This document shows, piece after piece, positions 45,978 to 62,955 of a stretch of 64,000 nt of DNA. Positions within the stretch are counted from its first letter, which is position 1. Each line of letters starts with the position of its first letter. The notes below the pieces were generated by a model. That model was given only the letters and a program-made list of their open reading frames with translations, was not told the origin of the DNA and ran no database searches. Made by a program: the position numbers and the translations under genes. The DNA comes from Parabacteroides faecis (GTDB lineage Bacteria > Bacteroidota > Bacteroidia > Bacteroidales > Tannerellaceae), in NCBI RefSeq assembly GCF_014647375.1, contig NZ_BMPB01000016.1, positions 1 through 64,000 on the forward strand, in the 5' to 3' direction.

Positions 45978-46087
45978 AATAAGGGTAACTTCACAGCCAC
46001 CCTTATTCGATTTAACCAAAACCTTAACTATGAAAAAATTTACGTTTTTCGTATGCAAATATAGCAGTCGAATTTGAACTGTGCAAA
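45978..46087 (-). promoter_or_regulatory. Promoter and hairpin leader upstream of the small membrane gene
   Basis: Minus strand: TTTG (46087-46084), a 20-base spacer, then a perfect -7 TATATTTG (46063-46056). Transcription would start near 46049. About 45 bases later comes a 9-base perfect stem, AATAAGGGT/ACCCTTATT (46007-45978), followed by TTACTTTTAT. This could be a short RNA of about 70 bases or an attenuated leader; the coding start is a further 84 bases on. Confidence 0.5.
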
Positions 46088-46145
46088 CCTTTGGAGGTTT
46101 ATTTTTATAGAACGTAAGATTTTAAATTTTATTAACAAGGACAAA

Positions 46146-47516
46146 ATGACGAATCAGGAAAATGGCGCAGACTTAAAATCTGCAGCCGGATTTGAGGAGA
46201 AAAAGTTGTTCATCGAAACCTACGGGTGCCAGATGAATGTAGCGGACAGTGAGGTAGTCGCTTCCATTATGAAAATGGATGGATATGCCATGACTGACAA
46301 AATTGAAGAAGCGGATGCTGTTTTTGTGAATACCTGTTCTGTGCGTGATAATGCGGAACAGAAAATTTACGGAAGGCTACAGTATTTCCAGTCACTTAAA
46401 CGCAAAAAGAAATCGCTGATTGTCGGTGTATTGGGATGTATGGCCGAACGGGTGAAAGAAGAGTTGATCAATGTGCATCATGCGGACCTGGTTGTCGGGC
46501 CGGACTCTTATATGGACCTGCCGAACCTGGTAGGCGCCGTAGAGCATGGTGAAAAAGCGATCAATGTGGAGCTTTCCACGCAGGAGACCTATAAAGATGT
46601 GATGCCGCTGAAATTGGGGGGTGTGCATATCTCCGGTTTTGTGTCGATCATGCGCGGATGCAATAATTTTTGTACGTATTGCATTGTACCTTATACCCGC
46701 GGTCGTGAACGTAGCCGGGATGTGGAAAGTATCCTGAACGAGATACGGGATATGCGTGACAAAGGCTTTAAGGAAGCAACGTTGTTGGGGCAGAATGTGA
46801 ATTCGTATGCTTTTGAGAAGGATGGCGAAACCGTAACGTTCCCGATGTTGCTGGAACGTGTGGCTTTGGAAGCTCCCGAAATGCGTATCCGTTTTGTGAC
46901 ATCTCATCCGAAAGATATGAGCGACGATACGCTCCGTGTGATTGCCGCCCATGATAATATCTGTAAGTATATCCATCTTCCGGCCCAGTCGGGAAGTTCG
47001 AAGATACTGAAAGTGATGAACCGGAAATATACCCGCGAATGGTATCTGGACCGTATCGCTGCTATCCGCCGCATCGTCCCCGAAGCGTCTATCGCAACCG
47101 ATTTGTTTTGCGGCTTCCATTCGGAAACGGAAGAGGATTATCAGGAAACGCTTTCATTGATGCGTGAAGTCAAGTATGATGCAGCTTTCCTGTTCAAATA
47201 TTCCGAACGTCCTGGCACTTATGCAGCCAAACATCTTCCGGATACTGTATCGGAAGAAGAAAAAGTGCGCCGCTTGCAGGGAATGATCGACCTGCAAAAT
47301 AAGTTGTCGGAAGAAAGTAATCTGCGTGATATCGGAAAAGAATTTGAAGTGTTGATCGAAGGCTTCTCCAAACGTTCCCGCGAACAGTTGTTCGGTCGTA
47401 CCAGTCAGAACAAAGTCGTTATTTTTGATAAGAAGAACTATAAAGTCGGACAGTTTGTGAAGGTGCGGATTACCCGTGCTTCTTCTGCTACATTATTTGG
47501 CGAAACGGTAGAATAA
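46146..47516 (+). CDS. miaB: tRNA methylthiotransferase MiaB
   Basis: A 456-residue enzyme that adds the methylthio group to isopentenyladenosine-37 of tRNAs. The N-terminal domain has its own cluster cysteines in YGCQMN (C28), NTCSVR and LGCMAE. The radical-SAM motif is CNNFCTYC (C172, C176, C179), followed by VPYTRGRERSR. A TRAM-like C-terminal domain (VLIEGFSKRS... GETVE) is present. An in-frame ATG at 46074 would add 24 unsupported residues over the divergent promoter, so 46146 is preferred. A terminator follows closely. Confidence 0.95.
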   Translation: MTNQENGADLKSAAGFEEKKLFIETYGCQMNVADSEVVASIMKMDGYAMTDKIEEADAVFVNTCSVRDNAEQKIYGRLQYFQSLKRKKKSLIVGVLGCMAERVKEELINVHHADLVVGPDSYMDLPNLVGAVEHGEKAINVELSTQETYKDVMPLKLGGVHISGFVSIMRGCNNFCTYCIVPYTRGRERSRDVESILNEIRDMRDKGFKEATLLGQNVNSYAFEKDGETVTFPMLLERVALEAPEMRIRFVTSHPKDMSDDTLRVIAAHDNICKYIHLPAQSGSSKILKVMNRKYTREWYLDRIAAIRRIVPEASIATDLFCGFHSETEEDYQETLSLMREVKYDAAFLFKYSERPGTYAAKHLPDTVSEEEKVRRLQGMIDLQNKLSEESNLRDIGKEFEVLIEGFSKRSREQLFGRTSQNKVVIFDKKNYKVGQFVKVRITRASSATLFGETVE

Positions 47517-47539
47517 TACTAATTTTATATAGAAAAAGG

Positions 47540-47583
47540 CTCTGCTTTTATACTAATTTGCTATAAAAGCAGAGTTATTTTTT
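47540..47583 (+). terminator. miaB terminator
   Basis: CTCTGCTTTTAT and ATAAAAGCAGAG form a perfect 12-base stem, followed by TTATTTTTT. Confidence 0.9.
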
Positions 47584-47595
47584 ATAAATAAGTAT

Positions 47596-47755
47596 TTAGT
47601 ACTGATAGAACTAAACCTTTTCTAACACGCAAATATAGTTTATTTTAAACAAGTTAGCTCCACATCACTAAAAAAAGACGTCCTCTTCCTTTTTCTTAAC
47701 TCCTTATTATTCAGGCCTAAAAACAGTCTAAAAACCTTAGTTCTATCAGAACTAA
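47596..47755. promoter_or_regulatory. Putative invertible promoter segment of PUL 2
   Basis: Two 19-base sites are inverted relative to each other with one mismatch: TTAGTACTGATAGAACTAA (47596-47614) and TTAGTTCTATCAGAACTAA (47737-47755). Each is itself palindromic, with the core AGTWC-N5-GAACT. The segment between holds no gene. It carries one perfect -7 motif, TATATTTG, on the minus strand (47637-47630), facing away from the sigma gene. Inversion would move it to about 47714-47721 facing that gene. This layout matches recombinase-controlled promoters of Bacteroides surface proteins. Confidence 0.7.
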
Positions 47756-47800
47756 GTCCGACTTATTTTCGGGTGAGCATGAAAAACTGTGTCTGAGCTA

Positions 47801-48379
47801 ATGGAGGGGGAAATGAGATATACTGAAATGTCTGATGCACAATTGTGGATTTTGATAATAGAAAAGGATAAAGCAGCTTTTGAACAACTTTACCGACGTT
47901 ATTATTCTCCACTATTGGCTTATGCTTTGTCTTTTCGTTTTGATGACGAGATGTCTAAAGATTGTATTCAGGACTTATTTGTCAAGCTTTTTACTTCTGA
48001 TTCATTAACCCCGATTGAATATGTAAAAGCTTATTTATACAGGGCATTGAGAAACCTCCTGATCGACAGGTCTAATATGGTTATGGAAAGTGTGAGTTTG
48101 GAAGAGAATTTAACCATAGATTTTCTGATCGAGGATATTGAACTGGTGAGATTATTTGAAAAGGAAGATGATTATCTTGAAAAAAGTAGATTATTAGTGA
48201 AAGCCTATGCTCAGTTGTCGGATAACCAAAAAAATGCAGTTTACCTTTATTATATAAAAGAATTTTCATGGGATGAAATGTCTGTATCTTTGGATATTAA
48301 CACACATTCTTGTATGAATCTGGTCGCCCGTTCCGTTGCCAAACTCAGGAAAATAATGGGGACAGAAAATAAAAAATGA
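47801..48379 (+). CDS. ECF-type RNA polymerase sigma factor (FecI-like)
   Basis: About 192 residues. The sigma-2 region (AFEQLYRRYYSPLLAYALSF... SKDCIQDLFVKLF) lies at about residues 25-75 and the sigma-4 helix-turn-helix (LSDNQKNAVYLYYIKEFSWDEMS... TRAM-free SVAKLRK) at about 135-185. It is released by its anti-sigma to transcribe the adjacent SusC/SusD locus when glycan binds. The start is unclear: GTG 47789, ATG 47801 and ATG 47813 are all in frame. It is preceded by the putative invertible promoter. Confidence 0.88.
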   Translation: MEGEMRYTEMSDAQLWILIIEKDKAAFEQLYRRYYSPLLAYALSFRFDDEMSKDCIQDLFVKLFTSDSLTPIEYVKAYLYRALRNLLIDRSNMVMESVSLEENLTIDFLIEDIELVRLFEKEDDYLEKSRLLVKAYAQLSDNQKNAVYLYYIKEFSWDEMSVSLDINTHSCMNLVARSVAKLRKIMGTENKK

Positions 48380-48446
48380 ATTTTTTACTCAAAAAGTGAG
48401 GAGTAAAAAGTCTTTTTCCAGTTATACTAATGATATTTCAATAAAA

Positions 48447-49511
48447 ATGGAAAAAGATTATAAACAATTTCAGAAAGTTACAGAGCGATTGACGACTTAT
48501 CTTCGTATCCGTGAAAATGTACAGAGACGAGGCGAAGACGAGGTGTGGAAAAGAATAGAGGAGAATATTGAAGGAAAGAAGAGATTTCTGTTTAGACGCC
48601 GGCTTTCTATTATTTCTACTGCAGCCGCTGTGCTTTTGCTCTTGTTCTTATCGGTTGAGTATCTGTGGCTCAGGGATTCTGATCCTCTGGATGCTTATGT
48701 CGCCTTATTGGATGAACCGACATTGGATAGTTCTCAGATTCAGGTCTATTTGTCTCCGGAAGAAAAAGTGATGGTCGAAGAGAATACGGCATCTGTGAGT
48801 TACTCACCTAAAGGAAATGTTTCTATCAACCAGATGGAGCAATCGGATACTCTATCAAAAAATAAAGAGCAAGAGTTTAATCAAATCGTTGTTCCCAAAG
48901 GGAAATATACTCATTTGACACTTTCCGACGGATCGACTGTCCATATAAATTCCGGTAGTCGTGTCGTATATCCGCGTGTATTTTCTTCGGAGAGCAGGGA
49001 GATATATGTTGAAGGAGAGGTCTGTTTGGATGTGACTAAAAATGAAAATGTTCCGTTCATTGTTAAAACAGCGTCTTTCGATGTAAAAGTTTTAGGCACA
49101 ATCTTTAATGTGAACGCATACAAGGGGGATTCGGATCACGAGGTCGTGTTGATTGAAGGATCGGTCCGTTTGTCCGACCAGCATAAAAACAGGATAGAAT
49201 TAAGGCCGGATCAGTTGGTTGCGGTCAATCAAGGGAAAATAGGGGAGATAAAAAAAGTTGATGCTTCAGACTATATTGCATGGACGAATGGATTGTTGGT
49301 TTTGCAGTCCGAGCCATTGTCTAAAGTCTTTAAAAAGTTAGAACGCTTTTATGGGATTTCAATTCACGTTTCTCCTGATGCCGGTTTGCTGAAGATGAAG
49401 GGGAAAATTGATCTGAAACAATCATTGGACGACCTGATCGTGCTGATCTCTTCATCGGCTCCAATTCGTTGGAATAAAACAGACGGAGAATATTATATAG
49501 ATGTAAAATGA
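48447..49511 (+). CDS. FecR-family anti-sigma factor
   Basis: A 354-residue inner-membrane protein. A cytoplasmic N-terminal part of about 50 residues binds the sigma factor, one membrane helix (SIISTAAAVLLLLFLSV, near residue 55-72) follows, and a periplasmic FecR domain (VVPKGKYTHLTLSDGSTVHINSGSRVVYP... EVCLDV... VLGTIFNVNAY) ends with a secretin-like DUF4974 domain (SEPLSKVFKKLERFYGISI). A GTG at 48396 is in frame, but the ATG at 48447 gives the normal N-terminus. It transmits the SusC STN-domain signal to the ECF sigma. Confidence 0.9.
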   Translation: MEKDYKQFQKVTERLTTYLRIRENVQRRGEDEVWKRIEENIEGKKRFLFRRRLSIISTAAAVLLLLFLSVEYLWLRDSDPLDAYVALLDEPTLDSSQIQVYLSPEEKVMVEENTASVSYSPKGNVSINQMEQSDTLSKNKEQEFNQIVVPKGKYTHLTLSDGSTVHINSGSRVVYPRVFSSESREIYVEGEVCLDVTKNENVPFIVKTASFDVKVLGTIFNVNAYKGDSDHEVVLIEGSVRLSDQHKNRIELRPDQLVAVNQGKIGEIKKVDASDYIAWTNGLLVLQSEPLSKVFKKLERFYGISIHVSPDAGLLKMKGKIDLKQSLDDLIVLISSSAPIRWNKTDGEYYIDVK

Positions 49512-49664: not shown

Positions 49665-52600
49665 ATGAATTATAATACATTTAAAATGAAGTGGATGATA
49701 AAAAAAATAAAAATCCTCTTCTTTGTTAATCTTTTTTTGACAATTTCGTTGAATCTTGATGCTGCTTCGGTATCGAATTATGCTCAGATAAAACAGTTTA
49801 CTTTCCATTTTGAGAAAAAAACAATACAAGACGTTTTTAATTATATAGAGCAGAACAGCGAGTTTGTATTCCTTTTTTACGAAAAAGTGTTGGATACGAA
49901 CCGCAAGGTAAATGTTTCCGTCAAAGATGAATCTATTGAGTCTGTATTAAATAAGTTGCTGAAAGATACTTCAGTGACATACGATATCAAAGATCGTCAG
50001 GTTGTATTAAAAAAGAAAGAAGAGAAATCTCTGCCAGTTCCTGCATCGACTCCGCAACAGCAAAAAAGTGTGACGGGAAAAGTAGTGGATGAAACGGGAG
50101 AACCGTTACCAGGTGTGGCCATTGTGGTAGAAGGATCTCCTCGTGGTGTCACGACGGATATCGACGGAACTTTTAGTATAGATGTAAAAAGTTCGGACAA
50201 GCTGATATTCTCTTATTTGGGAATGGAACCTCAGACGATCCCTGTGGCAAGTAAGAAAGAATTGATTGTCACTTTGAAAGCGAAGGTGGATGAATTGGAA
50301 GAAGTTACGGTGGTTGCTTTTGCCAAACAGAAAAAAGAAAGTGTGATTGCTTCCGTTTCAACGGTTAAACCTTCTGACTTGAAAGTTCCTTCCAGTAACT
50401 TGACAAATGCTTTTTCCGGGCGTATTGCCGGTATGATCTCTTATCAGCGTACGGGGGAACCCGGAGAAGATAATTCGGACTTCTTCATTCGTGGTGTGAC
50501 GACCTTTGGTACCGGAAAGTCGAATCCGTTGATCCTGATTGATGGTGTGGAAATGACGACAGAGGACTTGGCCCGTTTGACAACCGATGATATTGCCAGC
50601 TTCTCTATTATGAAGGACGCGAATGCAACTGCTCTTTACGGAGCGCGTGGTGCGAATGGTGTGATTCTTGTCAGTACCAAGGAAGGAAAAGAGGGAAAAG
50701 TCAGTATTTCCGTTCGGGCAGAAGGTTCGTTCTCTTCTCCGACAGAACAAGTAGGAATTGCCGATCCGGTCACTTACATGCGTATGCACAATGAAGCTGT
50801 GCGTACACGTGACCCGTTGGCTGCATTACCTTACTCTACATCAAAAATAGTAAATACGGAAAAAGGATTAAATCCTCTCCAATACCCGGCCATCGATTGG
50901 CGTGATATGTTGTTCAACAATCACACGTTCAATCAGCGTTACAACATGAGTATTAGCGGTGGTGGTAAAATTGCCCGTTATTATGTTGCAGCAGCTTATA
51001 ATAAGGACAATGGTATCATTCAGATGGATAAACGTAATAATTTTAATAATAATATCAGTATCAATAAATATATATTACGTTCAAACATTAATATAGACCT
51101 GACAAAATCGACTGAAATCATTGTCCGTCTGCATGGAGCTTTTGATGATTATTCCGGTCCGCTGGACGGTGGTTCGTCTTTATATGAGAAAGCGTTAAAT
51201 GCCAGTCCTGTATTGTTCCAACCTTATTATCCGGCTGACGAAGCTAATAAATATACTTCTCATATTCTTTTCGGTAATTATGGGGAAGGAAATTATTCGA
51301 ATCCTTATGCCGATATGGTTAAAGGCTATCAGGAATATAGCCGTTCGACCATGTTAGCTCAATTTGAGGCAAAGCAGAAACTTGATTTTATTACAGAGGG
51401 ATTATCGGCAAGAGCTTTGTTTAATGTGAACCGATATTCTAAACTGGGTAATTCAAATTCATATAAACCGTTTTATTATTCCTATTCTGCCAATCCGGAC
51501 AGTCCGGACTTATATAAATTGACAGCCTTGAATCCGGATGGAGGTACAGAATATCTGGAGTTTGCAACCGGAGCCAGGGAGGTAACCAGTACCTTGTATT
51601 TTGAAGGTGCGCTTGCTTATCAGAGGGAATTTAATGATAAGCATAATGTTTCCGGAATGTTGGTTTATACAATGCGCGATTATGTGGACAGTAATGCAGA
51701 GACATTGCAGTTGGCTCTTCCGCATCGTAACATAGGATTGGCCGGACGTTTTACTTACGGATACGATAGCCGTTATTTTGTGGAGGGTAACTTCGGTTAC
51801 AATGGTTCCGAACGGTTTGCTAAGAATGAACGCTTCGGTTTTTTCCCTTCTATCGGTTTAGGGTGGATAGTATCCAATGAGTCTTTTATGAAGCCTTATT
51901 CCAAGTGGTTAAGTAAACTAAAGTTGAAGGCTACATACGGATTGGTCGGTAACGACCAGATCGGAGAGAATAAAGACCGTTTCTTCTATCTTTCCCAAGT
52001 AAACGCAAACGATTCGGGGAAAGGTTTTACTTTCGGCGAATATTTTAATTATACCAGAAATGGTGTTTCCATATCTCGTTATGAAGATCCTTTCATTACC
52101 TGGGAAATAGGAAAGAAAATGAACCTGGGACTTGAGTTGAATTTGTGGAATAGTTTGGAGTTGCAGGTGGATTATTTTACGGAACATCGTTCGAATATTC
52201 TACAGGAACGTTCATATATTCCGACTACAATGGGATTGCAAGCCACTCCGCAGGCTAATGTTGGTAAAGCCAAAGGGGGAGGTATAGATATTTCCCTTGA
52301 CTATAATCATTCTTTCTCAAAAGATTTATGGGTATCTATGCGCGGAAATTTTACTTACGCAAGTAGTGAATATGTGGAATATGAAGAACCCGATTACAGT
52401 GATACACCTTGGCTGTCGCGTAAAGGAAAGAAAATATCCCAGACATGGGGGTTGGTTGCGGAACGTTTATTCCTGGACGAAGAAGAAGTAAAGAATTCAC
52501 CTAAACAAACTTTCGGCGATTACGGAGCCGGTGATATCAAGTACAAGGATATTAACGGCGACCAGATCATCGACGATCGCGACAAGGTGCCCATCGGTTT

Positions 52601-53096
52601 TCCGAAAACACCGGAAATAAATTATGGTTTCGGACTTTCTGCCGGTTATAAAGGTCTTGATTTCTCTTGTTTCTTCCAGGGGTCGGCTCGTTCTTCTTTC
52701 TGGATTGATCCTGCAAAAACAGCTCCGTTTGTAGGAAATACTGCTCCGAGAGCCTTGTTACAATATTATGCAGATGATCATTGGTCTGAAGACAATAAGA
52801 ATATTTACGCTTTGTGGCCCAGGTTATCGGCTAGTCAGGTCAAAAATAATGAGCAGGCCAGTACCTGGTTTATGCGGGACGGTGCATTCATTCGTTTAAA
52901 AACTGTGGAAGTAGGTTATTCTTTGCCTCAAAAATGGGTAAAAACGATAAGTCTGGCTAATGTGAGGCTTTATGTGACCGGCAACAACCTTTGTGTCTGG
53001 TCGAAATTTAAAATGTGGGATCCTGAGCTGGCTGGCAATGCTTTTAATTACCCGTTACAGCGTGTCTTTAATTTTGGAGTCAATATTAACTTATAA
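49665..53096 (+). CDS. SusC-like transporter with STN signalling domain (PUL 2)
   Basis: An 1143-residue TonB-dependent outer-membrane importer. After the signal peptide comes an STN domain (KQFTFHFEKKTIQDVFNYIEQ to DRQVVLKK, about residues 44-117) that contacts the FecR anti-sigma. A carboxypeptidase-like domain (VTGKVVDETGEPLPGVAIVVEG), TonB box LEEVTVVAFA, plug and barrel follow, ending FGVNINL. The STN domain makes it a sensor-transporter, matching the sigma/anti-sigma pair upstream. SusD begins 11 bases later. Confidence 0.95.
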   Translation: MNYNTFKMKWMIKKIKILFFVNLFLTISLNLDAASVSNYAQIKQFTFHFEKKTIQDVFNYIEQNSEFVFLFYEKVLDTNRKVNVSVKDESIESVLNKLLKDTSVTYDIKDRQVVLKKKEEKSLPVPASTPQQQKSVTGKVVDETGEPLPGVAIVVEGSPRGVTTDIDGTFSIDVKSSDKLIFSYLGMEPQTIPVASKKELIVTLKAKVDELEEVTVVAFAKQKKESVIASVSTVKPSDLKVPSSNLTNAFSGRIAGMISYQRTGEPGEDNSDFFIRGVTTFGTGKSNPLILIDGVEMTTEDLARLTTDDIASFSIMKDANATALYGARGANGVILVSTKEGKEGKVSISVRAEGSFSSPTEQVGIADPVTYMRMHNEAVRTRDPLAALPYSTSKIVNTEKGLNPLQYPAIDWRDMLFNNHTFNQRYNMSISGGGKIARYYVAAAYNKDNGIIQMDKRNNFNNNISINKYILRSNINIDLTKSTEIIVRLHGAFDDYSGPLDGGSSLYEKALNASPVLFQPYYPADEANKYTSHILFGNYGEGNYSNPYADMVKGYQEYSRSTMLAQFEAKQKLDFITEGLSARALFNVNRYSKLGNSNSYKPFYYSYSANPDSPDLYKLTALNPDGGTEYLEFATGAREVTSTLYFEGALAYQREFNDKHNVSGMLVYTMRDYVDSNAETLQLALPHRNIGLAGRFTYGYDSRYFVEGNFGYNGSERFAKNERFGFFPSIGLGWIVSNESFMKPYSKWLSKLKLKATYGLVGNDQIGENKDRFFYLSQVNANDSGKGFTFGEYFNYTRNGVSISRYEDPFITWEIGKKMNLGLELNLWNSLELQVDYFTEHRSNILQERSYIPTTMGLQATPQANVGKAKGGGIDISLDYNHSFSKDLWVSMRGNFTYASSEYVEYEEPDYSDTPWLSRKGKKISQTWGLVAERLFLDEEEVKNSPKQTFGDYGAGDIKYKDINGDQIIDDRDKVPIGFPKTPEINYGFGLSAGYKGLDFSCFFQGSARSSFWIDPAKTAPFVGNTAPRALLQYYADDHWSEDNKNIYALWPRLSASQVKNNEQASTWFMRDGAFIRLKTVEVGYSLPQKWVKTISLANVRLYVTGNNLCVWSKFKMWDPELAGNAFNYPLQRVFNFGVNINL

Positions 53097-53107
53097 ATCA
53101 GAATATT

Positions 53108-55000
53108 ATGAAATACTTTTCGAGATTGATCATAATTGCATTGACCTTTTTCTCTACCTCATGTGCAGATTATCTGGATATTGTGCCGGATGATATTGCT
53201 ACAATAGAGAAATCGTTTAATAACAGGGCGGCAGCAGAACGTTTCTTCTTTACTTGTTACAGTTATCTTCCGAATCCGACGGATATTTGGAATAGTACGG
53301 AGCTGATGACCGGAGATGAGATATGGTGGGATATTGATCAACCTAACTGGGTTACCAATCCGGTGACTTATATTGCTAAAGGTAGTCAGAATGCCAATAA
53401 CCCGTATCTCAACTATTGGGATGGCGAACAAAACGGGAAGAAATTATTTGTGGCAATACGCGACTGCAATATTTTTCTGGAAAATATTGACCGGGTGCAT
53501 GATATGGAGGAGTATGAAAGGAGCCGCTGGATTTCGGAAGTTAAGTTCCTGAAAGCCTACTATCATTACTATTTAATGACTTTATACGGACCTGTTCCGA
53601 TCATTGATAAGAATTTACCGGTTTCGGCTTCTCCGGAAGATGTTCGTGTATACCGGGAGCCGGTGGATGATGTTGTAGAATATATTGTGAATTTGATAAA
53701 TGAAGCTATCCCCGATCTTCCGCTTGAAATTGCTGATAAGACAAATGAAGCCGGACGTATCACGCAGCCTATAGCGGTTGCAATAAAAGCAAAAGCTTTA
53801 GTCTGGGCTGCCAGCCCGTTATTCAACGGGAATGCGGATTATATACATTTTGTAGATAATCAGGGACGGAAACTGGTTGATACTGAATTTAAAGTAGAGA
53901 AATGGCAACGTGCGGCAACTGCACTAAAAAATGCGATAGATACCTGTGAGCTGGCAGGACATCAATTGCATACTTTTAGACCGACCACTTCTATATCTGA
54001 TACAACTGCATTAAAGTTGACACTTCGTTCTGCCTTTTCTGAAAAATGGAATAAAGAGGTTGTTTGGGGATCGACGCATGATGTGGGGGCTTTACAAAAA
54101 CTTTGTATGCCTCACCTGGTCGTAAACAATTTGGGGAACGGTACAAATGAAATATGTGCTACTCTGAAGATTGCAGAACAATTTTATACCGAAAATGGTA
54201 TTCCTATCGATGAGGACCCTTCATGGGACTACGAAAATAGATATGATACGCAGAAAGTTACGGATAAGGATAAGTTTTATCTGGAACCGGGTGAGGTGAC
54301 AGCCAAACTTCATTTTAACCGGGAACCTCGTTTTTATGCGACCCTGGGATTTGACAGATCTGTTTTTGAAGGTGCCGGTAAAATCACGGATAATGATAAG
54401 TGGTATTTACATGCCCGCAAGAGTGAGATATCCGGATTCAGAAGTACGGGTGAACATATTCCGACCGGCTACTTTATTAAAAAGTTGATCAATTATGAAA
54501 CAACGGCAGGGACAGCTTCCAATACTTACAACGGCGTTCGCTATTCATTCCCGCTAGTCCGTATGTCCGATCTCTATCTTTTATATGCCGAGGCCTTGAA
54601 TGAGGCAAACTCTACTCCTGTGGCAGACGTTTATGCATATACCGACAAAGTTCGGGAACGGGCCGGACTAAAAGGTGTTGTCGAATCCTGGAAGAAATCC
54701 AAACTGGCTAATAAACCGAATACGCAGGAGGGGATGCGGGAGATCATTCATCAGGAGCGTCTGAACGAACTGGCTTGTGAAGGTGTACGTTCCGCTGATT
54801 TGCGCCGTTGGAAAGAAGCTATGGATTATTTGAACCAACCGGTTAGAGGCTGGAATTATCAAGGGGAAACGGCCGACTCTTATTATACGGTGGTGACTTA
54901 TGCAAACCGTATATTTAAGACTAAAGATTATCTATGGCCGATCAAAACGAATTCTATAACTATTAATTCGAATCTGGTACAGAATCCTGGCTGGGAGTAA
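53108..55000 (+). CDS. SusD-like glycan-binding lipoprotein (PUL 2)
   Basis: A 630-residue SusD/RagB protein, at the large end for the family. Lipobox STSC near residue 19, then ADYLDIVPDDIATIEKSF, the TPR signature WISEVKFLKAYYHYYLMTLYGPVPI and the C-terminal YAEALNEAN... VRERAGLKGV... HQERLNELACEGVRSADLRRW. It is paired with the preceding SusC. Likely ligands are host-type oligosaccharides, inferred only from the adjacent GH89. Confidence 0.95.
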   Translation: MKYFSRLIIIALTFFSTSCADYLDIVPDDIATIEKSFNNRAAAERFFFTCYSYLPNPTDIWNSTELMTGDEIWWDIDQPNWVTNPVTYIAKGSQNANNPYLNYWDGEQNGKKLFVAIRDCNIFLENIDRVHDMEEYERSRWISEVKFLKAYYHYYLMTLYGPVPIIDKNLPVSASPEDVRVYREPVDDVVEYIVNLINEAIPDLPLEIADKTNEAGRITQPIAVAIKAKALVWAASPLFNGNADYIHFVDNQGRKLVDTEFKVEKWQRAATALKNAIDTCELAGHQLHTFRPTTSISDTTALKLTLRSAFSEKWNKEVVWGSTHDVGALQKLCMPHLVVNNLGNGTNEICATLKIAEQFYTENGIPIDEDPSWDYENRYDTQKVTDKDKFYLEPGEVTAKLHFNREPRFYATLGFDRSVFEGAGKITDNDKWYLHARKSEISGFRSTGEHIPTGYFIKKLINYETTAGTASNTYNGVRYSFPLVRMSDLYLLYAEALNEANSTPVADVYAYTDKVRERAGLKGVVESWKKSKLANKPNTQEGMREIIHQERLNELACEGVRSADLRRWKEAMDYLNQPVRGWNYQGETADSYYTVVTYANRIFKTKDYLWPIKTNSITINSNLVQNPGWE

Positions 55001-55027: not shown

Positions 55028-56212
55028 ATGAAACAGTTAATATATTCATTTTTTTTGTTGGTATTGATCTCATCATGTGCGGAAGATCATATCGGACAAA
55101 CTCCAACGGATGGTACAGCTCCGTCGACGATCACGGCGGTGGAGGTAGAAAGTACACCCGGTGGAGCTAAGATATCGTATACAATACCTAAAGAAACCGA
55201 TATTTCGTATGTGAAGGGTGTTTATTATGTAAATAACCGGGAGCATGTGGTGAGGTCTTCCATCTATAAAAACAGTTTGGAAATTGAAGGTCTGGGTACA
55301 ACGGATCCATTAGATATCACATTATATGTCGTCGATCATAGTGAGAATGTTTCCGAACCGTACGTGGTGACCATCAATCCGTCGACACCGATAGTCGATC
55401 TTATATTGAGCTCTGTTAAATTGCAGGCAGACTTTGGCGGTGTCAATGCCACCTGGAACAATGGTTTGGGCTCGGAGATTGGTTTAACTATAATGGCTAC
55501 AAACAGCAAAGGAGAATTGGAAGATGGCGAAACATATTATTCGAATATGAAAGAAGGTGACTATTCATTTAGAGGTTATGATGATGTCAAACGAGTGTTT
55601 GCATTATATCTGACTGATAAGTGGGGAAATGTTTCTGATACCATTCAACAGGAGGTTTCTCCGTATTATGAAATGCAGTTGGATAAGAGCAAGCATAAAC
55701 GGCTTGTTTTGCCAAAGGATAATAGTACGAACCTGAATACAAATTATACATTCGAAAAAATGTTTGATAATAGCCTTTCGAGTATGTGGCATACAACGGA
55801 AAAAGATGGCTCTATACCAATCTATTTCACACTGGATTTGGGTGTCGATGCAAAATTGAGTCGCTTTAAGCTGTATCATCGTGACGGTACGTCCTGGTTC
55901 TATAAACATTACAACCCCAAAACATTTGAAGTATGGGCTACCGATACTTATAAAGAAGGAATGGGGGATGAATATTGGACGGAAGAGTGGAAGAATGATT
56001 GGGTACAAGTGGGCGATTATGTCACCTTGAAACCTTCCGGAGACGGAACTGTCACCAATGAAGATGCGGAGTATGCTTCTAAGGGATTCGAGTATTCTGC
56101 ACCTTTGGACCTGAAAAAAGTACGTTATCTGCGTTTTGTCGTGAAAAGTACATGGTCGGGAGCTGCCTATTTGCATATTGCTGAATTGACTTTCTGGGGT
56201 AATGATCGATAA
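55028..56212 (+). CDS. DUF4959/DUF5126/DUF5000 surface lipoprotein
   Basis: A 394-residue lipoprotein (lipobox LISSC near residue 17). Three modules can be seen: a fibronectin-like DUF4959 (TPGGAKISYTIPKETDISYVKGVYY), a DUF5126-like middle (ATWNNGLGSEIGLTIMA... LYLTDKWGNVSDT) and a C-terminal DUF5000 galactose-binding-like domain (FDNSLSSMWHTTEK... LRFVVKSTWSGAAYLHIAELTFWG). This is a frequent partner of sigma/anti-sigma PULs for host glycans and likely binds glycan at the surface. Confidence 0.86.
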   Translation: MKQLIYSFFLLVLISSCAEDHIGQTPTDGTAPSTITAVEVESTPGGAKISYTIPKETDISYVKGVYYVNNREHVVRSSIYKNSLEIEGLGTTDPLDITLYVVDHSENVSEPYVVTINPSTPIVDLILSSVKLQADFGGVNATWNNGLGSEIGLTIMATNSKGELEDGETYYSNMKEGDYSFRGYDDVKRVFALYLTDKWGNVSDTIQQEVSPYYEMQLDKSKHKRLVLPKDNSTNLNTNYTFEKMFDNSLSSMWHTTEKDGSIPIYFTLDLGVDAKLSRFKLYHRDGTSWFYKHYNPKTFEVWATDTYKEGMGDEYWTEEWKNDWVQVGDYVTLKPSGDGTVTNEDAEYASKGFEYSAPLDLKKVRYLRFVVKSTWSGAAYLHIAELTFWGNDR

Positions 56213-56221
56213 ACTATTAAA

Positions 56222-56941
56222 ATGAGAATCAGAATGAAAAGTATAATAAAAAACATTGCAGGGTTTATTTGTATCATCATAGGATTGAGCAGCTGTGAAA
56301 ATATCAATGATGTACATGAAGAGTATCTGAAATGGGGGGAAGAAATCTATACAGGCGTTGTAGATTCATTGGAAGCGTATCCCGGAAATGAGCGTATTAA
56401 ATTTACCTGGATGATCAATGCGGATCCTCGTATTACTAAAACTGTAATTTACTGGAATGACGGGGGAGATTCTGCTGTTGTAGAAGTCAATCGTACTCAA
56501 TCAGGTATTATGCGGATGGAAACAAGTTTGAATTTGCCTGAGAATAGCTATATTTTCAAATTTGTGACAAAAGATGATGAAGGTCATAAATCGTTGAACG
56601 TAGAAAAAACAGCGGATATTTATGGTTCCAGATATGTTTCTACTTTGCGAAACAGGGAAATCAGAACGATAGTAGCTCAGGAAGGTAATAGCGTTAAGTT
56701 GACCTGGAGTTCGATCGAGAGCGAGACTTTATCGTATACTATGATCACTTATACGGATAATACCGAGCCGTCTGATCCGAAGACGATTGAGAAGAAAGTG
56801 GAGAATGATATGTCAGAAACCGTCCTGTCGAACCTGAAAGCAGGTGATGAATTTGCTGTGCTTTCTGTTTATCAACCTCATGGTTCACTGGATACTTTTG
56901 AAGCGAGTGCAACGGTCTATCATGTCCCGATTGCGGAATAG
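56222..56941 (+). CDS. DUF4998 surface lipoprotein
   Basis: A 239-residue lipoprotein (lipobox LSSC near residue 24). It resembles DUF4998: HEEYLKWGEEIYTGVVDSLEAYPGNERIKFTW followed by two fibronectin-like beta sandwiches. These lie next to DUF4959/DUF5000 lipoproteins in many PULs. The precise ligand is unknown. It starts 9 bases after the preceding gene and precedes GH89. Confidence 0.82.
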   Translation: MRIRMKSIIKNIAGFICIIIGLSSCENINDVHEEYLKWGEEIYTGVVDSLEAYPGNERIKFTWMINADPRITKTVIYWNDGGDSAVVEVNRTQSGIMRMETSLNLPENSYIFKFVTKDDEGHKSLNVEKTADIYGSRYVSTLRNREIRTIVAQEGNSVKLTWSSIESETLSYTMITYTDNTEPSDPKTIEKKVENDMSETVLSNLKAGDEFAVLSVYQPHGSLDTFEASATVYHVPIAE

Positions 56942-57084
56942 TAACTGAAAGGTGATTATGAACTGATGGTATGCAGATAATACGTTCGGAATGTGTTATT
57001 GTGCATACCATTGGTATGTTTGGAGATAGTTTATTCTAAATTACGAGTATTTGATACTAATAAATAACAAACAAGATATACGAA

Positions 57085-59346
57085 ATGAAACTAAAAATAG
57101 CATTATTTATTCTTACAATATTCTGTATTGGATGTACGAAAGACCCGCAGATCCGGGCGGCTTACGATTTGATCGAGCGTGTTACACCCGGATATGGAAA
57201 ACAGTTCAAACTGGAACTGATCGAACCTGTCGACGGACAGGACGCATATGAAATAACATCCGTAGATGGAAAAGTGCTTCTTCGGGGTAATAATACCGTT
57301 TCTTTGGCTACAGCCTACAATCAATATCTGAAATATACCTGCAATGCGCATGTTTCCTGGTTTGGTGACCAGCTGGATTTACCGGAACAGTTGCCTCTCC
57401 CTGAAAAAGAAATAAAAAATACGATCAATGGAAAATACAGAGTGTACATGAATTACTGTACTGTCAGCTATACCGCTGCCTGGTGGGACTGGGACCGCTG
57501 GCAAAGGGAATTGGACTATATGGCGATGAACTCCATCAATATGCCATTGTCCGTTGTCGGACTGGAAGCTGTGTGGTATAATACTTTATTGAAATATGGC
57601 TTTACCGATGAAGAGGCCCGTGCTTTCCTGGCAGGACCCGGACATTTCGCCTGGCAGTGGATGCAAAACCTGCAAAGTTATGGTGGTCCGTTACCGAAGT
57701 CCTGGATTGACAGCCATGTAGAATTAGGGAAAAAAGTCATCGATCGGCAATTGGAATTGGGAATGCAACCCATACAGCAGGGATTCTCCGGTTATGTCCC
57801 GCGTGAACTGAAAAATAAATATCCGGATGCAAAAATTCAATTGCAACCTTCTTGGTGCGGTTTTACCGGTGCTGCACAGTTGGATCCGACCGATCCGCTT
57901 TTCAGTGCTTTTGGACGTGACTTTCTGGAGGAGGAAAAGAGATTGTTCGGTGCGCATGGCGTGTATGCTGCCGATCCGTTTCATGAAAGCCGACCGCCGG
58001 TCGATACACCCGAATATCTGAGTGCTGTAGGTAATTCTATCTACGAATTATTCAAAAATTTCGATCCTTCGGCTATGTGGGTTATGCAAGCCTGGAGCCT
58101 TCGCGAACCGATCGTGAAAGCCGTTCCTAAAGAACATCTTTTGATACTCGACCTGAATGGCGGAAGAAGCAGACAGGAAAATACTTGTTGGGGATATCCG
58201 GTTGTTGCCGGGAATCTACACAACTTCGGTGGTCGTATCAACCTGCACGGTGACTTACGTCTGCTGGCTTCCAATCAATATGTGCTTGCCAACCGGAAGT
58301 CGTCCAATGTTTGCGGTTCCGGTTTGTTTATGGAGTCGATCGAACAGAATCCGGTTTATTATGATTTGGCCTTTGAAATTCCGCTTCATGCCGGTGAAGT
58401 GGATGTCGAGGAGTGGTTAGGCAACTACGCAAAGCGGCGTTACGGAGCTACTTCTGAGAATGCGCATAGGGCCTGGTTGTATTTGTTAGAAGGTCCGTAC
58501 CGCCCCGGGACAAATGGTACGGAGCGTAGTTCCATTATTGCTGCTCGTCCGGCACTGAATGTGAAAAAATCCGGTCCGAATGCGGGATTAGGTATTCCGT
58601 ATTCACCCTTATTGGTTATCCGGGCACAAGGTTTATTGTTGAAAGATGCCGATAATTTAAAGGCCTCTGCTCCTTACCGTTTTGATGTGGTCGATATTCA
58701 ACGCCAACTAATGTCGAATCTGGGTCAGGCTATTCATAAAAAAGCGGCCGAAGCTTTTGAAAAGAAGGATAAAGCTGCTTTCGCTCTGCATAGCAGCCGT
58801 TTTCTGGAAATGCTTCGTGATGCAGATATCTTGTTGCGTACGCGTCCGGAGTTCAATTTTGATAAATGGTTGACTGACGCTCGTAGCTGGGGAACTACCG
58901 GTGAAGAAAAAGACTTGCTTGAAAAAGATGCCACAGCACTGGTGACTATTTGGGGAGCTGACGGTGATCCGCTGATCTTTGATTATTCGTGGCGCGAATG
59001 GTCAGGTCTGATCGATTGTTATTACCTGAAACGTTGGGAAATGTTTTACGCTATGCTGCAGGAGCATCTGGATATGGGAAAGGATTATTCGGAAAAAGGT
59101 CTTCCTATGACCCATGGCCGTGAAGCCTTTCGTGCCAATGAATTCTATAGTCAACTGGGAGATTGGGAACTGGAATTTGTTTCAAAAACCGGCAAAGCCC
59201 GTACTCCGGTCATTCAGGGGGATGAAATAGAAACGGTTCAGAAAATGTATAAAAAGTATGCAACTCTAGCCCGGGAATATTATCAGGATGAAATGAAAGC
59301 GGATAATATTCAGGAAGGTAACATTTTTGAAAATCTGGGTGAATGA
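57085..59346 (+). CDS. GH89 alpha-N-acetylglucosaminidase (lipoprotein)
   Basis: A 753-residue family 89 enzyme that releases terminal alpha-linked GlcNAc, as in gastric mucin O-glycans or heparan sulfate. Lipobox FCIGC near residue 16. An N-terminal beta/alpha domain is followed by the TIM-barrel core YRVYMNYCTVSYTAAWWDWDRWQREL. The two catalytic glutamates by comparison with human NAGLU and Clostridium GH89 are E301 in DPFHESRPP and E417 in FMESIEQNPVYYD. It is the only glycosidase of PUL 2 inside the window. Confidence 0.94.
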   Translation: MKLKIALFILTIFCIGCTKDPQIRAAYDLIERVTPGYGKQFKLELIEPVDGQDAYEITSVDGKVLLRGNNTVSLATAYNQYLKYTCNAHVSWFGDQLDLPEQLPLPEKEIKNTINGKYRVYMNYCTVSYTAAWWDWDRWQRELDYMAMNSINMPLSVVGLEAVWYNTLLKYGFTDEEARAFLAGPGHFAWQWMQNLQSYGGPLPKSWIDSHVELGKKVIDRQLELGMQPIQQGFSGYVPRELKNKYPDAKIQLQPSWCGFTGAAQLDPTDPLFSAFGRDFLEEEKRLFGAHGVYAADPFHESRPPVDTPEYLSAVGNSIYELFKNFDPSAMWVMQAWSLREPIVKAVPKEHLLILDLNGGRSRQENTCWGYPVVAGNLHNFGGRINLHGDLRLLASNQYVLANRKSSNVCGSGLFMESIEQNPVYYDLAFEIPLHAGEVDVEEWLGNYAKRRYGATSENAHRAWLYLLEGPYRPGTNGTERSSIIAARPALNVKKSGPNAGLGIPYSPLLVIRAQGLLLKDADNLKASAPYRFDVVDIQRQLMSNLGQAIHKKAAEAFEKKDKAAFALHSSRFLEMLRDADILLRTRPEFNFDKWLTDARSWGTTGEEKDLLEKDATALVTIWGADGDPLIFDYSWREWSGLIDCYYLKRWEMFYAMLQEHLDMGKDYSEKGLPMTHGREAFRANEFYSQLGDWELEFVSKTGKARTPVIQGDEIETVQKMYKKYATLAREYYQDEMKADNIQEGNIFENLGE

Positions 59347-59582: not shown

Positions 59583-59958
59583 AGTTCTCGTAGGACTACG
59601 TTCTTAGTAAATGCAAATTTACACATATATTTATTTATATAAATTAAATAGCGGGAGAAAATATAGCAAAACTGTCGTATAACATATATTCTTTTTTATA
59701 GACTACCTTATTGCACAAATTGTATTTTAAATGATTTTATTGATTTGTAGCTTGCTTCATATGCTGTTTTATTCCCGCTTAACGCATATTTATTATTCTT
59801 TATAATTACAGTTTGTTGTATAAAATATGTTAAGCAGTTTATTTGGCGCTAATTTTTATCACCTCAATTAAAAAAGCGTAAGGCGCTGTTTGGCACTTTA
59901 TTAAGTTCCTCCTTCATTGTAGACCTCTCTGATAATTTACATAAGTCCTACGAGTACT
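59583..59958. promoter_or_regulatory. Putative invertible promoter segment of PUL 3
   Basis: Inverted sites AGTTCTCGTAGGACT (59583-59597) and AGTCCTACGAGTACT (59944-59958) match at 14 of 15 positions and share the AGTNC-N5-GNACT design of the PUL 2 sites. They enclose about 346 bases of AT-rich DNA with no gene, directly before susC. A plus-strand promoter candidate inside has TTTG/TTG (59812-59818) and TTTATTTG (59838-59845), 19 bases apart. A minus-strand TAAATTTG also occurs (59621-59614). Confidence 0.68.
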
Positions 59959-59997: not shown

Positions 59998-62955
59998 ATG
60001 AGAAGAAGAATGATGTTATTACTTACCTGTTGTATAATAGGTGTAGGTTTGGTGATGGCTCAGTCGTCTAAGGTAACTGGTAAAGTTCTTTCCGATGAGG
60101 ATGGAGAAGCTATTATTGGAGCGACTGTGATGGTGAAAGGGACAGCTATCGGTACTGTAACTGATGCAGATGGTTTTTTCAGTTTGAGTAATGTCCCGGC
60201 TTCGGCAAAAGTTCTGGAAATCTCGTTTGTCGGAATGGAAACGATGACCGTTAAAATCGCTCCGAATCTGACAATCCGGATGAGAAACTCTTCAGAGATG
60301 CTGGATGAGGTGCTGATTACAGGAACCTATGGTTCGGCAAAGAAATTAGGTTCAATGGTTGGGTCTGTTGCCGCCGTTAAATCGGAAAAGATTTCTAATC
60401 GTCCGAGTGCGAACTTTGCAGACGCTTTACAAGGGCAAGTTGCCGGTCTACAGGTATACACCTCTTCGGGAGAACCGAGCGAAAATGTTTCTATGCGTTT
60501 GCGTGGTGTCGGTTCTATCAATTCTTCTACCGAGCCCTTATTTGTTTTGGATGGCTCCCCGATTTCCAGCGGTGTTTTTACCGCTTTGAACCCGAGTGAT
60601 ATTGAAAATGTCACAGTTTTGAAGGATGCGTCGTCAACATCCATTTACGGTTCCCGTGCAGCGAATGGTGTCGTGATAATTACAACTAAGCGTGGTAAAG
60701 GTTCAAAACCTACGGTTAGCGTTAAAGGACAGTATGGCTTTTCACAGCCGGCGTTGCCTACAACGGAAATGATGAACACGACGCAATATTACAATTTCTG
60801 GAAAACGGTTAAGCCGGATGCCAATCTTTCTACGGTTGAAAAATACATGAATATGGGAATTTCTACCGATTGGGCTGATTATTTTTTGAAGGATAATGCC
60901 CCGACATGGCAATTGGATGCAAGTATTACAGGTGTTGCCAATAATACGAACTACTTTATTTCTGCCAGTCATTATGATGCGGAAGGTGTGGAACCGGCTT
61001 CCGGTATGCGTCGTGAAACATTACGTAGTAATATTGATTCAAAAGTATTTAGCTGGCTGCGGGTAGGGCTGAATTTGGGTTTGTCTTATGAAGATTTTGA
61101 GACAAACGGATTTGCCAGTACAGGAAATAGTTGGTATAATGTTGGTACTTTAAGCCGTTGGGCTGTCCCTTATGAAACTCCTTATGAAATAATAGAAAAC
61201 GCGGATGGCAGTATATCCTATGGTAAGCGGAAAGATTTACTGGATGTGCTGGGACTGTGGAATCCATATTATTTATTAGAAAATCAACCGACTGAAAAAA
61301 ATAAAATTCGTCTTTATGGGAATATGTTTGAAGAACTGACTCCGGTTAAGGGACTGACAATTCGTGCTGCCCAGGCTATGGATGCATTTGATTACAGGTA
61401 TCGCTATAAAAGTTTACCGGCCAGATATAATAATTATTCCGGCAGTGCTGCCGAAACTTTCCAGCGGTATTCTTCTTTTACGTTGACTAATACGGCTGAA
61501 TATAAGTTTGATATCAATAAGTCGCATAACCTTACAGCCCTGGTGGGGCAAGAGTCGATTATATACGATGGCAGTTCTTTCGGAACCAGCGTAGATGGCA
61601 TAACCGATTCTCGTTTGTCGATGGTAAGTCATGGTACAACATACAAAGCGCCGAGCGCGAGTCTGAAGAAGAAAACGATGAACTCTTTCTTCGCACGCGC
61701 GGAATATAATTTCAATGAAAAATATTATCTGGATGCCTCTTACCGTACGGATGGTTCTTCTTTGTTTGGGGTAAACAAACGCTGGGCTTCCTTCTTTTCT
61801 GTTGGGGCTATGTGGAATATGAAGAAAGCACAATTCCTGGCTGATGTAGACTGGTTGGACGAATTGCGTGTGAAAGCCAGTTATGGTACAACCGGTAACT
61901 CTGCATTTGAAGGTGACCCCTATTACCCATCCTTAGGATTGATCGGTACAGGACTTTACAACGGGAACCAGAGTTTCGGAGTTTCTTCCGTACAAAATGA
62001 CGATCTGACCTGGGAAAAACAAAAAACATTGAATATCGGCTTCAATTCACGTTTCTTTAATCGCTTGAGTATCGACTTTGACTTCTATAACAAGGTGACG
62101 ACGGATATGTTGATGACGATCCCGTTCTCTTATACAACCGGTCATGATTCAGGGTGGGGAAATATTGGCAGTATGTTTAATCGTGGTATCGAACTTACCG
62201 CTTCTTATGATATAATCTCCAATAAAGATCTCTTTTGGAGTGTTTCGGCTAATATCAACTATAACAAGAACCAGATTACAGAATTGTTTGGCGGACGTGA
62301 TGAGTATGTAGTGGCTAATACAGGTGTTAAATATGAAGTAGGTAAAACATATGGCGATTTCTATTATGTGAGATGGAAAGGCGTTGATCCGCAGGACGGA
62401 CAGCAAATATGGCTGGATAAAGACGGGAATGAAACAAAAACTTATTCTGAAGATAATGCCGTGTTTACCGGAAAAAATCAATTTGCACCCTGGATAGGTG
62501 GTTTCAATACCCAGTTTTCCTGGAAGGGTTTCACTTTGAATGCGGACTTTTCTTTTATGTTGGGTAAATATATGATCGATAATAACCGCTACTTCGTTGA
62601 AAATCCGAATTTCGTCGGACAGTTAAACCAGGCTGTCGTGATGGAAAATATGTGGACAACACCTGGGCAGGTAACGGATATTCCGGCAGCAAATTCTGCA
62701 ATTCAATTTGATACTCACTTGATTGAAAATGCATCGTTTATGCGTCTGAAGAATTTGACGATCGGTTATAACCTGCCGGACAATTTATTAAGAAAAACAG
62801 GCTTTATCCGTGGTGTCAGAGTCTTTGCTGTTGGCCGTAACTTGTTGACTGTTACAAAATATCAGGGAGCGGACCCGGAGGTGGATTCAAACTTGCAGTT
62901 AGGTAAATATCCGAATACCCGCCAGTTCTCATTTGGTGCTGAATTTACGTTCTAA
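59998..62955 (+). CDS. SusC-like TonB-dependent transporter (PUL 3)
   Basis: A 985-residue TonB-dependent importer of the outer membrane. Signal peptide (MRRRMMLLLTCCIIGVGLVMAQ), carboxypeptidase-like domain (VTGKVLSDEDGEAIIGATVMVKG), TonB box LDEVLITGTYG, plug (VAGLQVY... LRGVGSINSS... YGSRAANGVVIITTKRG) and a barrel ending FSFGAEFTF. It has no STN domain, so it is not wired to a sigma/anti-sigma pair like PUL 2. No local regulator precedes it; the upstream region is the putative invertible promoter. Confidence 0.95.
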   Translation: MRRRMMLLLTCCIIGVGLVMAQSSKVTGKVLSDEDGEAIIGATVMVKGTAIGTVTDADGFFSLSNVPASAKVLEISFVGMETMTVKIAPNLTIRMRNSSEMLDEVLITGTYGSAKKLGSMVGSVAAVKSEKISNRPSANFADALQGQVAGLQVYTSSGEPSENVSMRLRGVGSINSSTEPLFVLDGSPISSGVFTALNPSDIENVTVLKDASSTSIYGSRAANGVVIITTKRGKGSKPTVSVKGQYGFSQPALPTTEMMNTTQYYNFWKTVKPDANLSTVEKYMNMGISTDWADYFLKDNAPTWQLDASITGVANNTNYFISASHYDAEGVEPASGMRRETLRSNIDSKVFSWLRVGLNLGLSYEDFETNGFASTGNSWYNVGTLSRWAVPYETPYEIIENADGSISYGKRKDLLDVLGLWNPYYLLENQPTEKNKIRLYGNMFEELTPVKGLTIRAAQAMDAFDYRYRYKSLPARYNNYSGSAAETFQRYSSFTLTNTAEYKFDINKSHNLTALVGQESIIYDGSSFGTSVDGITDSRLSMVSHGTTYKAPSASLKKKTMNSFFARAEYNFNEKYYLDASYRTDGSSLFGVNKRWASFFSVGAMWNMKKAQFLADVDWLDELRVKASYGTTGNSAFEGDPYYPSLGLIGTGLYNGNQSFGVSSVQNDDLTWEKQKTLNIGFNSRFFNRLSIDFDFYNKVTTDMLMTIPFSYTTGHDSGWGNIGSMFNRGIELTASYDIISNKDLFWSVSANINYNKNQITELFGGRDEYVVANTGVKYEVGKTYGDFYYVRWKGVDPQDGQQIWLDKDGNETKTYSEDNAVFTGKNQFAPWIGGFNTQFSWKGFTLNADFSFMLGKYMIDNNRYFVENPNFVGQLNQAVVMENMWTTPGQVTDIPAANSAIQFDTHLIENASFMRLKNLTIGYNLPDNLLRKTGFIRGVRVFAVGRNLLTVTKYQGADPEVDSNLQLGKYPNTRQFSFGAEFTF

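Follow-up and report, generated by a model that had tools for sequence, protein, structure and literature searches.

A gene-free segment in the window, the whole stretch of 64,000 nucleotides of Parabacteroides faecis DNA that was analysed, is very probably a phase-variable promoter, OFF in the assembly, which gates a signalling locus and belongs to a genome-wide family of invertible promoters. An initial annotation of this DNA had read the segment as an invertible promoter in the OFF orientation that gates a sigma factor, and that reading is now supported at the level of the family by paired sites, by the distance of the promoter box from them and by orthologues found flipped. It is founded on direct observation of the site class, of the pairing and spacer identity of its members, of promoter position and direction, of gene order and of the inversion of other members.

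The two 19-nt arms described in that annotation, TTAGTACTGATAGAACTAA on the left and TTAGTTCTATCAGAACTAA on the right, are inverted copies of each other with one mismatch and lie where they had been placed, to the base (Table 1). Across the 551-bp region, the closest-matching 19-nt inverted repeat carried one mismatch; in 60 dinucleotide shuffles it carried three to six. The palindromes noted within the arms were also recovered, the right site being a perfect AGTTC-N5-GAACT and the left having AGTAC as its outer half, and the 5-bp spacer is the same in both sites. The 122 bp between the arms, described as gene-free, hold no ORF of at least 90 aa. When both strands of the segment were scanned, the single perfect TANNTTTG was the motif reported earlier, TATATTTG on the minus strand, read from 47637 to 47630 and facing away from the sigma gene; a scripted inversion carried it to 47714-47721 on the plus strand, the position that had been forecast. 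Judged from its sequence and its class-conserved position, this box would be the outward promoter of the segment. No clear -33 element was found in the window segment or across the site class. In the inverted arrangement the transcript start is estimated near 47728, and the right site would fall in the leader as a small hairpin.

Table 1. Features of the switch and of the genes around it; positions are those of the window.
Feature	Position	Strand	Remarks
MtaB/RimO-type radical SAM gene	46074..47516	+	Upstream neighbour, outside the switch; UPF0004, Radical_SAM, TRAM
Hairpin region 3′ of the MtaB-like gene	47520..47596	.	z -5.67 (plus), -4.64 (minus); stable on both strands
Left inverted-repeat arm	47596..47614	+	Core site 47598-47612, AGTACTGATAGAACT; outer half AGTAC off consensus
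Segment predicted to invert	47615..47736	.	122 bp, no ORF ≥90 aa
-7 box TATATTTG(C)	47630..47637	-	17 nt from inner edge of left core site; OFF direction
Right inverted-repeat arm	47737..47755	-	Core site 47739-47753, AGTTCTATCAGAACT; perfect class consensus
ECF sigma factor gene	47789..48379	+	Sigma70_r2, Sigma70_r4_2; start GTG 47789, ATG 47813 possible
FecR-type anti-sigma factor	48396..49511	+	FecR, FecR_C
SusC-like TonB-dependent transducer with N-terminal STN domain	49665..53096	+	STN, CarbopepD_reg_2, Plug
SusD-like lipoprotein	53108..55000	+	
DUF4959/DUF5126/DUF5000 protein, DUF4998 protein, NAGLU alpha-N-acetylglucosaminidase	55028..59346	+	Rest of the locus

An ECF sigma gene does lie directly behind the segment, as the annotation had it, and its product has both region 2 and region 4 of a sigma factor; next come FecR and an STN-bearing TonB receptor, which is the composition of an ECF sigma/FecR/SusC transducer system. 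The complete order, sigma-FecR-SusC(STN)-SusD-NAGLU, is the usual layout of a trans-envelope signalling locus, a family of loci in which FecR and the STN domain generally pass a glycan signal to the sigma factor. Since the locus ends in an alpha-N-acetylglucosaminidase, a host glycan is perhaps the target. The window lies on contig C16 of a 6.66-Mb genome assembled in 33 contigs. It contains another switch of this class, with more degenerate sites, at 59583-59958 (sites 59583-59597, AGTTCTCGTAGGACT, and 59944-59958, AGTCCTACGAGTACT), directly 5′ of a SusC-like gene (59998-62955); a TAAATTTG placed 16 nt from its left site faces away from that gene, so that this switch is also OFF.

On the other side of the segment, the product of the MtaB-like gene is 95-96% identical to the Parabacteroides gordonii and P. 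goldsteinii versions. The promoter in its present orientation reads through the left site toward this gene, as would be expected if it drove a useful leftward antisense or small RNA and both orientations were functional; this is nevertheless most improbable, since a stable minus-strand hairpin lies in the path and the stretch from the promoter to the MtaB-like gene is free of minus-strand ORFs of at least 90 aa, the closest one (46392-47120, 242 aa) lying inside that gene and beyond the hairpin. The hairpin could also halt transcripts from the OFF promoter before they read the MtaB-like gene in antisense.

The window sites are members of a large class. Exact AGTTC-N5-GAACT sites number 66 in the genome, compared with one for the reversed pattern (each site counted once). 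Fifty-seven of the 66, the window site included, were retrieved with their flanks, and 55 of the 57 have an inverted mate with at most two mismatches within 3 kb; 45 mates are exact, nine carry one mismatch, one carries two, and two sites are without a mate. With three relatives added, for which twenty regions each, holding part of their sites, were taken, 88 pair entries from four species were obtained (33 here, 20 from P. gordonii G019, 17 from G022 and 18 from G024), the three-site locus L048 accounting for two of the 33. The 5-bp spacer varies from pair to pair and shows no within-pair difference in any of the 88 entries. Mates were accepted with up to two mismatches, a search that would miss pairs with more; because these were allowed anywhere in the 15 bases, spacer identity was not imposed by the search. 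Off-consensus bases in the pairs of L036-L066, the window and L181-L240 number 19 in outer half-sites, outside the segment, and three in inner ones. At L048:4065-4260, three sites with the same spacer stand at one SusC promoter, two of them on the gene side, so that inversion could use either of these two as partner site.

Among 39 Parabacteroides genomes, the excess of sites over control is strong in this genome (G000, 66/1) and in G019, G022 and G024 (54/2, 46/2 and 45/2, respectively), weaker in some of the others and absent from many. The exact module of TATATTTG plus site occurs in 2 of 247 Bacteroidales genomes, namely the present one and G060, also a Parabacteroides. Nine of the 247 contain TTAGTTC-N5-GAACTAA and six its reversed control; apart from the present genome, G135 alone has more than a single copy, with three sites and no inverted pairs. 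The expansion of the sites looks concentrated in this genus, as judged from a survey of one -7 variant and few genomes per genus.

Promoter placement is likewise a property of the class. Fifty-two of the 83 segments no longer than 700 bp (five of the 88 exceed this length and were set aside) have an outward TANNTTTG whose distance to the inner edge of a site is 13-21 nt; 200 shuffles averaged 1.4 and never exceeded 5. The box is present on both ends in one of the 83, and 31 have none at this distance. The published consensus for the Bacteroides -7 box is TANNTTTGY (PMC12632263). Between the right site and the sigma gene, and thus outside the segment, lies a weak -7-like sequence with one mismatch, TATTTTCG at 47764; by its sequence it is the main alternative promoter and could transcribe regardless of orientation. 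If the main promoter of the sigma gene lay there, the segment would invert with little effect, and the want of an evident -33 box in the segment fits such an arrangement. It is unlikely, given that promoter direction and distance are conserved throughout the class beside both SusC and sigma genes.

Entries were scored ON or OFF where a box lay 12-36 nt from a site and the nearest gene was a sigma, FecR or SusC gene, called with profiles built from this genome's own genes; entries flanked on both sides by such genes counted as ON. Scored in this way, the 33 entries of this genome comprise 14 OFF, 5 ON and 14 that could be scored neither way, and the 88 entries of the four genomes comprise 32, 13 and 43, respectively. 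In 16 of the 88 entries the closest outward gene that could be recognised encodes a sigma factor; some of these entries are ON and some OFF, and several are mutual orthologues. Seven are in this genome (the window, L038, L040, L042, L049, L059 and L061, identified with Pfam) and three in each of G019, G022 and G024 (identified by profile only); L042 and L061 showed no perfect box at the expected place. A further site at G000:C1:652913-652953, with TATATTTG at the class distance and about 1.2 kb from a FecR match (C1:651171-651758), is perhaps another sigma switch with a degenerate mate.

Inversion was observed by comparing segments and flanks across the four genomes. Among 53 segment matches, 42 were in the same orientation and 11 were inverted; several of the latter, which involve paralogues or are flanked by SusC genes left and right, are unsafe, and L048 is counted twice. 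With both flanks aligned, the segment is inverted between L055 and L207 (199 of 205 bases identical) and between L206 and L228 (523 of 577), as it is between L055 and L232 and, more weakly, between L048 and L193. The sigma/FecR switch L038 aligns with its counterparts L190, L212 and L225 only when inverted, with scores of 57.5, 48.5 and 48.0, compared with -2, -8 and -1 in the same direction and shuffled maxima of 12, 11 and 7; flank homology in these comparisons is on the sigma side only. The L038 promoter is OFF here and ON in all three relatives; at L190 a further box stands 33 nt from the opposite site. A possible additional sigma case is the pair L049 (ON) and L233 (OFF), whose segments align poorly in both directions (6.0 inverted, -7.0 in the same direction). 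Since orthologous segments are inverted between species, switches of this site class, including one before a sigma gene, flip over evolutionary time.

Some segments carry coding sequence. At L047:4040-4610 (G000:C10:57039-57609) the inverted sites, at 57039 and 57595, lie inside a FecR gene, and the 0.54-kb segment between them carries the FecR N-terminus; the left-facing half is a 242-aa frame with FecR and FecR_C, and a complete FecR of 314 aa is encoded facing right. Computed inversion yields a 314-aa left-facing and a 242-aa right-facing frame, the N-terminus being joined in frame to the opposite FecR C-terminal half. The same in-frame exchange is found at L192, L202 and L224 in the three relatives and is thus conserved in four species, in all of which the locus is assembled in the same orientation.

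The sites have features that would also suit operators for a repressor or activator, two per promoter and perhaps acting by DNA looping, with no inversion: each is an interrupted palindrome, and many stand at a fixed distance from the promoter box. Operators, however, need no spacers that differ between pairs and match within them, the match here being without exception in the 88 entries, and they account neither for orthologous segments inverted between species nor for in-frame swaps produced by inverting sites within FecR genes in four species, so that such a role is very unlikely.

Other segments with genes were noted. The 1.6-kb segment at L052:4121-5787 (G000:C12:219620-221286) contains a FecR gene and a stranded 74-aa N-terminus that inversion would fuse in frame to the SusC on the left, which would afterwards measure 1119 aa. 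The 74-aa fragment was considered as an STN domain; the likeness is by eye only, and no STN match came from Pfam. The segment at L054:3931-5125 contains a gene for an AraC-type regulator, and L188, L214 and L235 have segments (1167 bp) that come close to it in length.

The window locus itself was sought elsewhere. No inverted copy of its segment was seen in a DNA search of 60 genomes or in the ortholog searches; outside its own genome, the DNA search returned matches of at most 49 bases in six genomes, three of them covering the right repeat arm. The sigma protein had no relative in a scan of genome contigs, and neither it nor the window FecR protein is encoded in any of 80 loci at E 1e-5 (flank lengths vary). 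None of the 38 MtaB-gene loci from Parabacteroides and its kin (L071-L108, with flanks of varying length) has a site of the AGTTC class. A FecR search of 39 genomes gave a match at 1e-10 in 35, its own included; among the matches listed for 38 other Parabacteroides species representatives there was no orthologue of the window FecR, the best-scoring foreign match being 37% identical and the highest identity 41%. A plasmid search gave no match, nor did a search of viral contigs for the right arm extended by one base.

The left site, with its AGTAC outer half, may be slow or locked. It is one mismatch off consensus, and no second orientation is known at the window locus, as would be the case had a genuine switch become locked OFF or too slow through degeneration of this half-site. 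We consider this rather unlikely, as outer-half mismatches are common (10 of the 33 own pair entries) and are present in L059 and L060, which have a well-placed promoter box and were scored ON. The AGTAC variant also occurs in L057 and L240, whose orientation is ambiguous, with SusC genes on both sides.

A phase-variable promoter at the window locus could operate as follows. A site-specific recombinase, putatively of the tyrosine type from the layout of the sites, would pair both AGTTC-N5-GAACT-type sites, and strand exchange within the identical 5-bp spacers would flip the 122-bp segment. In the OFF state the single outward promoter would fire away from the locus, toward the hairpin predicted to be stable on both strands; in the ON state it would stand 17 nt before the right site and would be expected to drive the ECF sigma and FecR genes. 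Only ON cells would then answer the cognate glycan by inducing SusC/SusD/NAGLU, presumably by the signalling route usual for such loci, so that a single flip would decide if the locus is available to a cell in the first place.

Candidates for the recombinase were sought among the tyrosine recombinases of the genome, where the phage-integrase family gave 23 matches, 22 of them above the cut-off; L005 and L006 are presumably XerC/XerD. A candidate of 406 aa (C8:253492-254709) shows 93-97% conservation in G019, G022, G024, G014, G012, G033 and G026, and its eight carriers exceed other species in excess sites (p 0.0013, uncorrected for relatedness), yet G026 carries it and is without excess sites. 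The L025 family tracks the site excess better (p 0.00014, likewise uncorrected), and three members of this family lie next to different repeats of their own. Invertase-like genes L021 and L023-L026 each lie beside a segment of about 0.4 kb between repeats of 18-26 bp, which have a different, CTTATTT-type motif (ACCTTATTTATATAATAAGGG and kin), and these segments are probably a second invertible class. Because the neighbouring repeats are of another kind, it is doubted that L021 and L023-L026 act on AGTTC sites; the L025 family nonetheless gives the best species profile.

The repeat that looked solitary in the window is one of dozens of switches, so the earlier claim was right and understated. 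A switch before a sigma/anti-sigma pair would make the sensing and use of a glycan an all-or-none, heritable and reversible trait of the single cell, and, given the seven candidate sigma-gene switches of this genome, the cells of one clone could diverge into many nutrient-sensing types. More tentatively, and with somewhat more doubt than belief, we suggest that one recombination system in the P. gordonii/goldsteinii group rewires trans-envelope signalling: by flipping sigma/FecR promoters (the window and 15 other entries in four species), by swapping the FecR sensor half in frame between two outward-facing alternatives, and by joining or removing an N-terminal part of SusC that is STN-like by eye. 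Usual accounts of phase variation in gut Bacteroidales concern capsules and surface proteins; if the suggestion is true, DNA inversion shuffles nutrient sensing itself, beyond surface structure.

Promoter inversion between recombination sites is of a known kind. The flagellar operon of Clostridioides difficile includes a sigma gene, sigD. As described, its switch (RecV; PMC5386303) resembles the one here in consisting of a 154-bp segment, flanked by 21-bp repeats, ahead of an operon, and in setting a whole programme, flagella and toxins, with one flip, as proposed here; it differs in acting after the start of transcription and in belonging to an unrelated phylum. In B. fragilis one tyrosine recombinase inverts a local promoter and distant ones, each lying between inverted repeats, as proposed here, and the local promoter is described as shifted to OFF in culture (PMC4747536). 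The one-recombinase regulon of the same source likewise has many dispersed invertible regions tied to SusC/SusD surface proteins; its text names the SusC/SusD clusters and gives nine other regions without description, and the likeness is one of layout. The B. fragilis ECF sigma gene BF3407 is reported among the genes raised in an ON/ON mutant (PMC4747536), so a sigma-gene level that depends on promoter inversion is already on record. As reported there, however, BF3397 and not the sigma gene lies directly behind IVp-II, and disrupting BF3407 left BF3397 expression unchanged, whereas at the window locus the first gene behind the switch is the sigma gene.

The invertible promoters of the BT1927 S-layer and of capsules are likewise promoter inversions at surface loci, and surveys of invertons in gut Bacteroidales report SusC/SusD and TonB-receptor genes near them (PMC12548429, PMC12632263, PMC10939037, PMC11892184), invertible regions ranging from regulatory genes to surface molecules (PMC10939037). 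In the text of these sources, supplementary tables aside, no switch before an ECF sigma/FecR pair is described, and a literature search with the same reservation found no invertible promoter directly before such a pair in Bacteroidales, BF3407 being nearest. Compared with the known systems as their main descriptions give them, what seems new here is the combination of repeated switches directly before Bacteroidales ECF sigma/FecR pairs with in-frame FecR swapping by the same sites, and the conserved FecR swaps are perhaps the larger finding.
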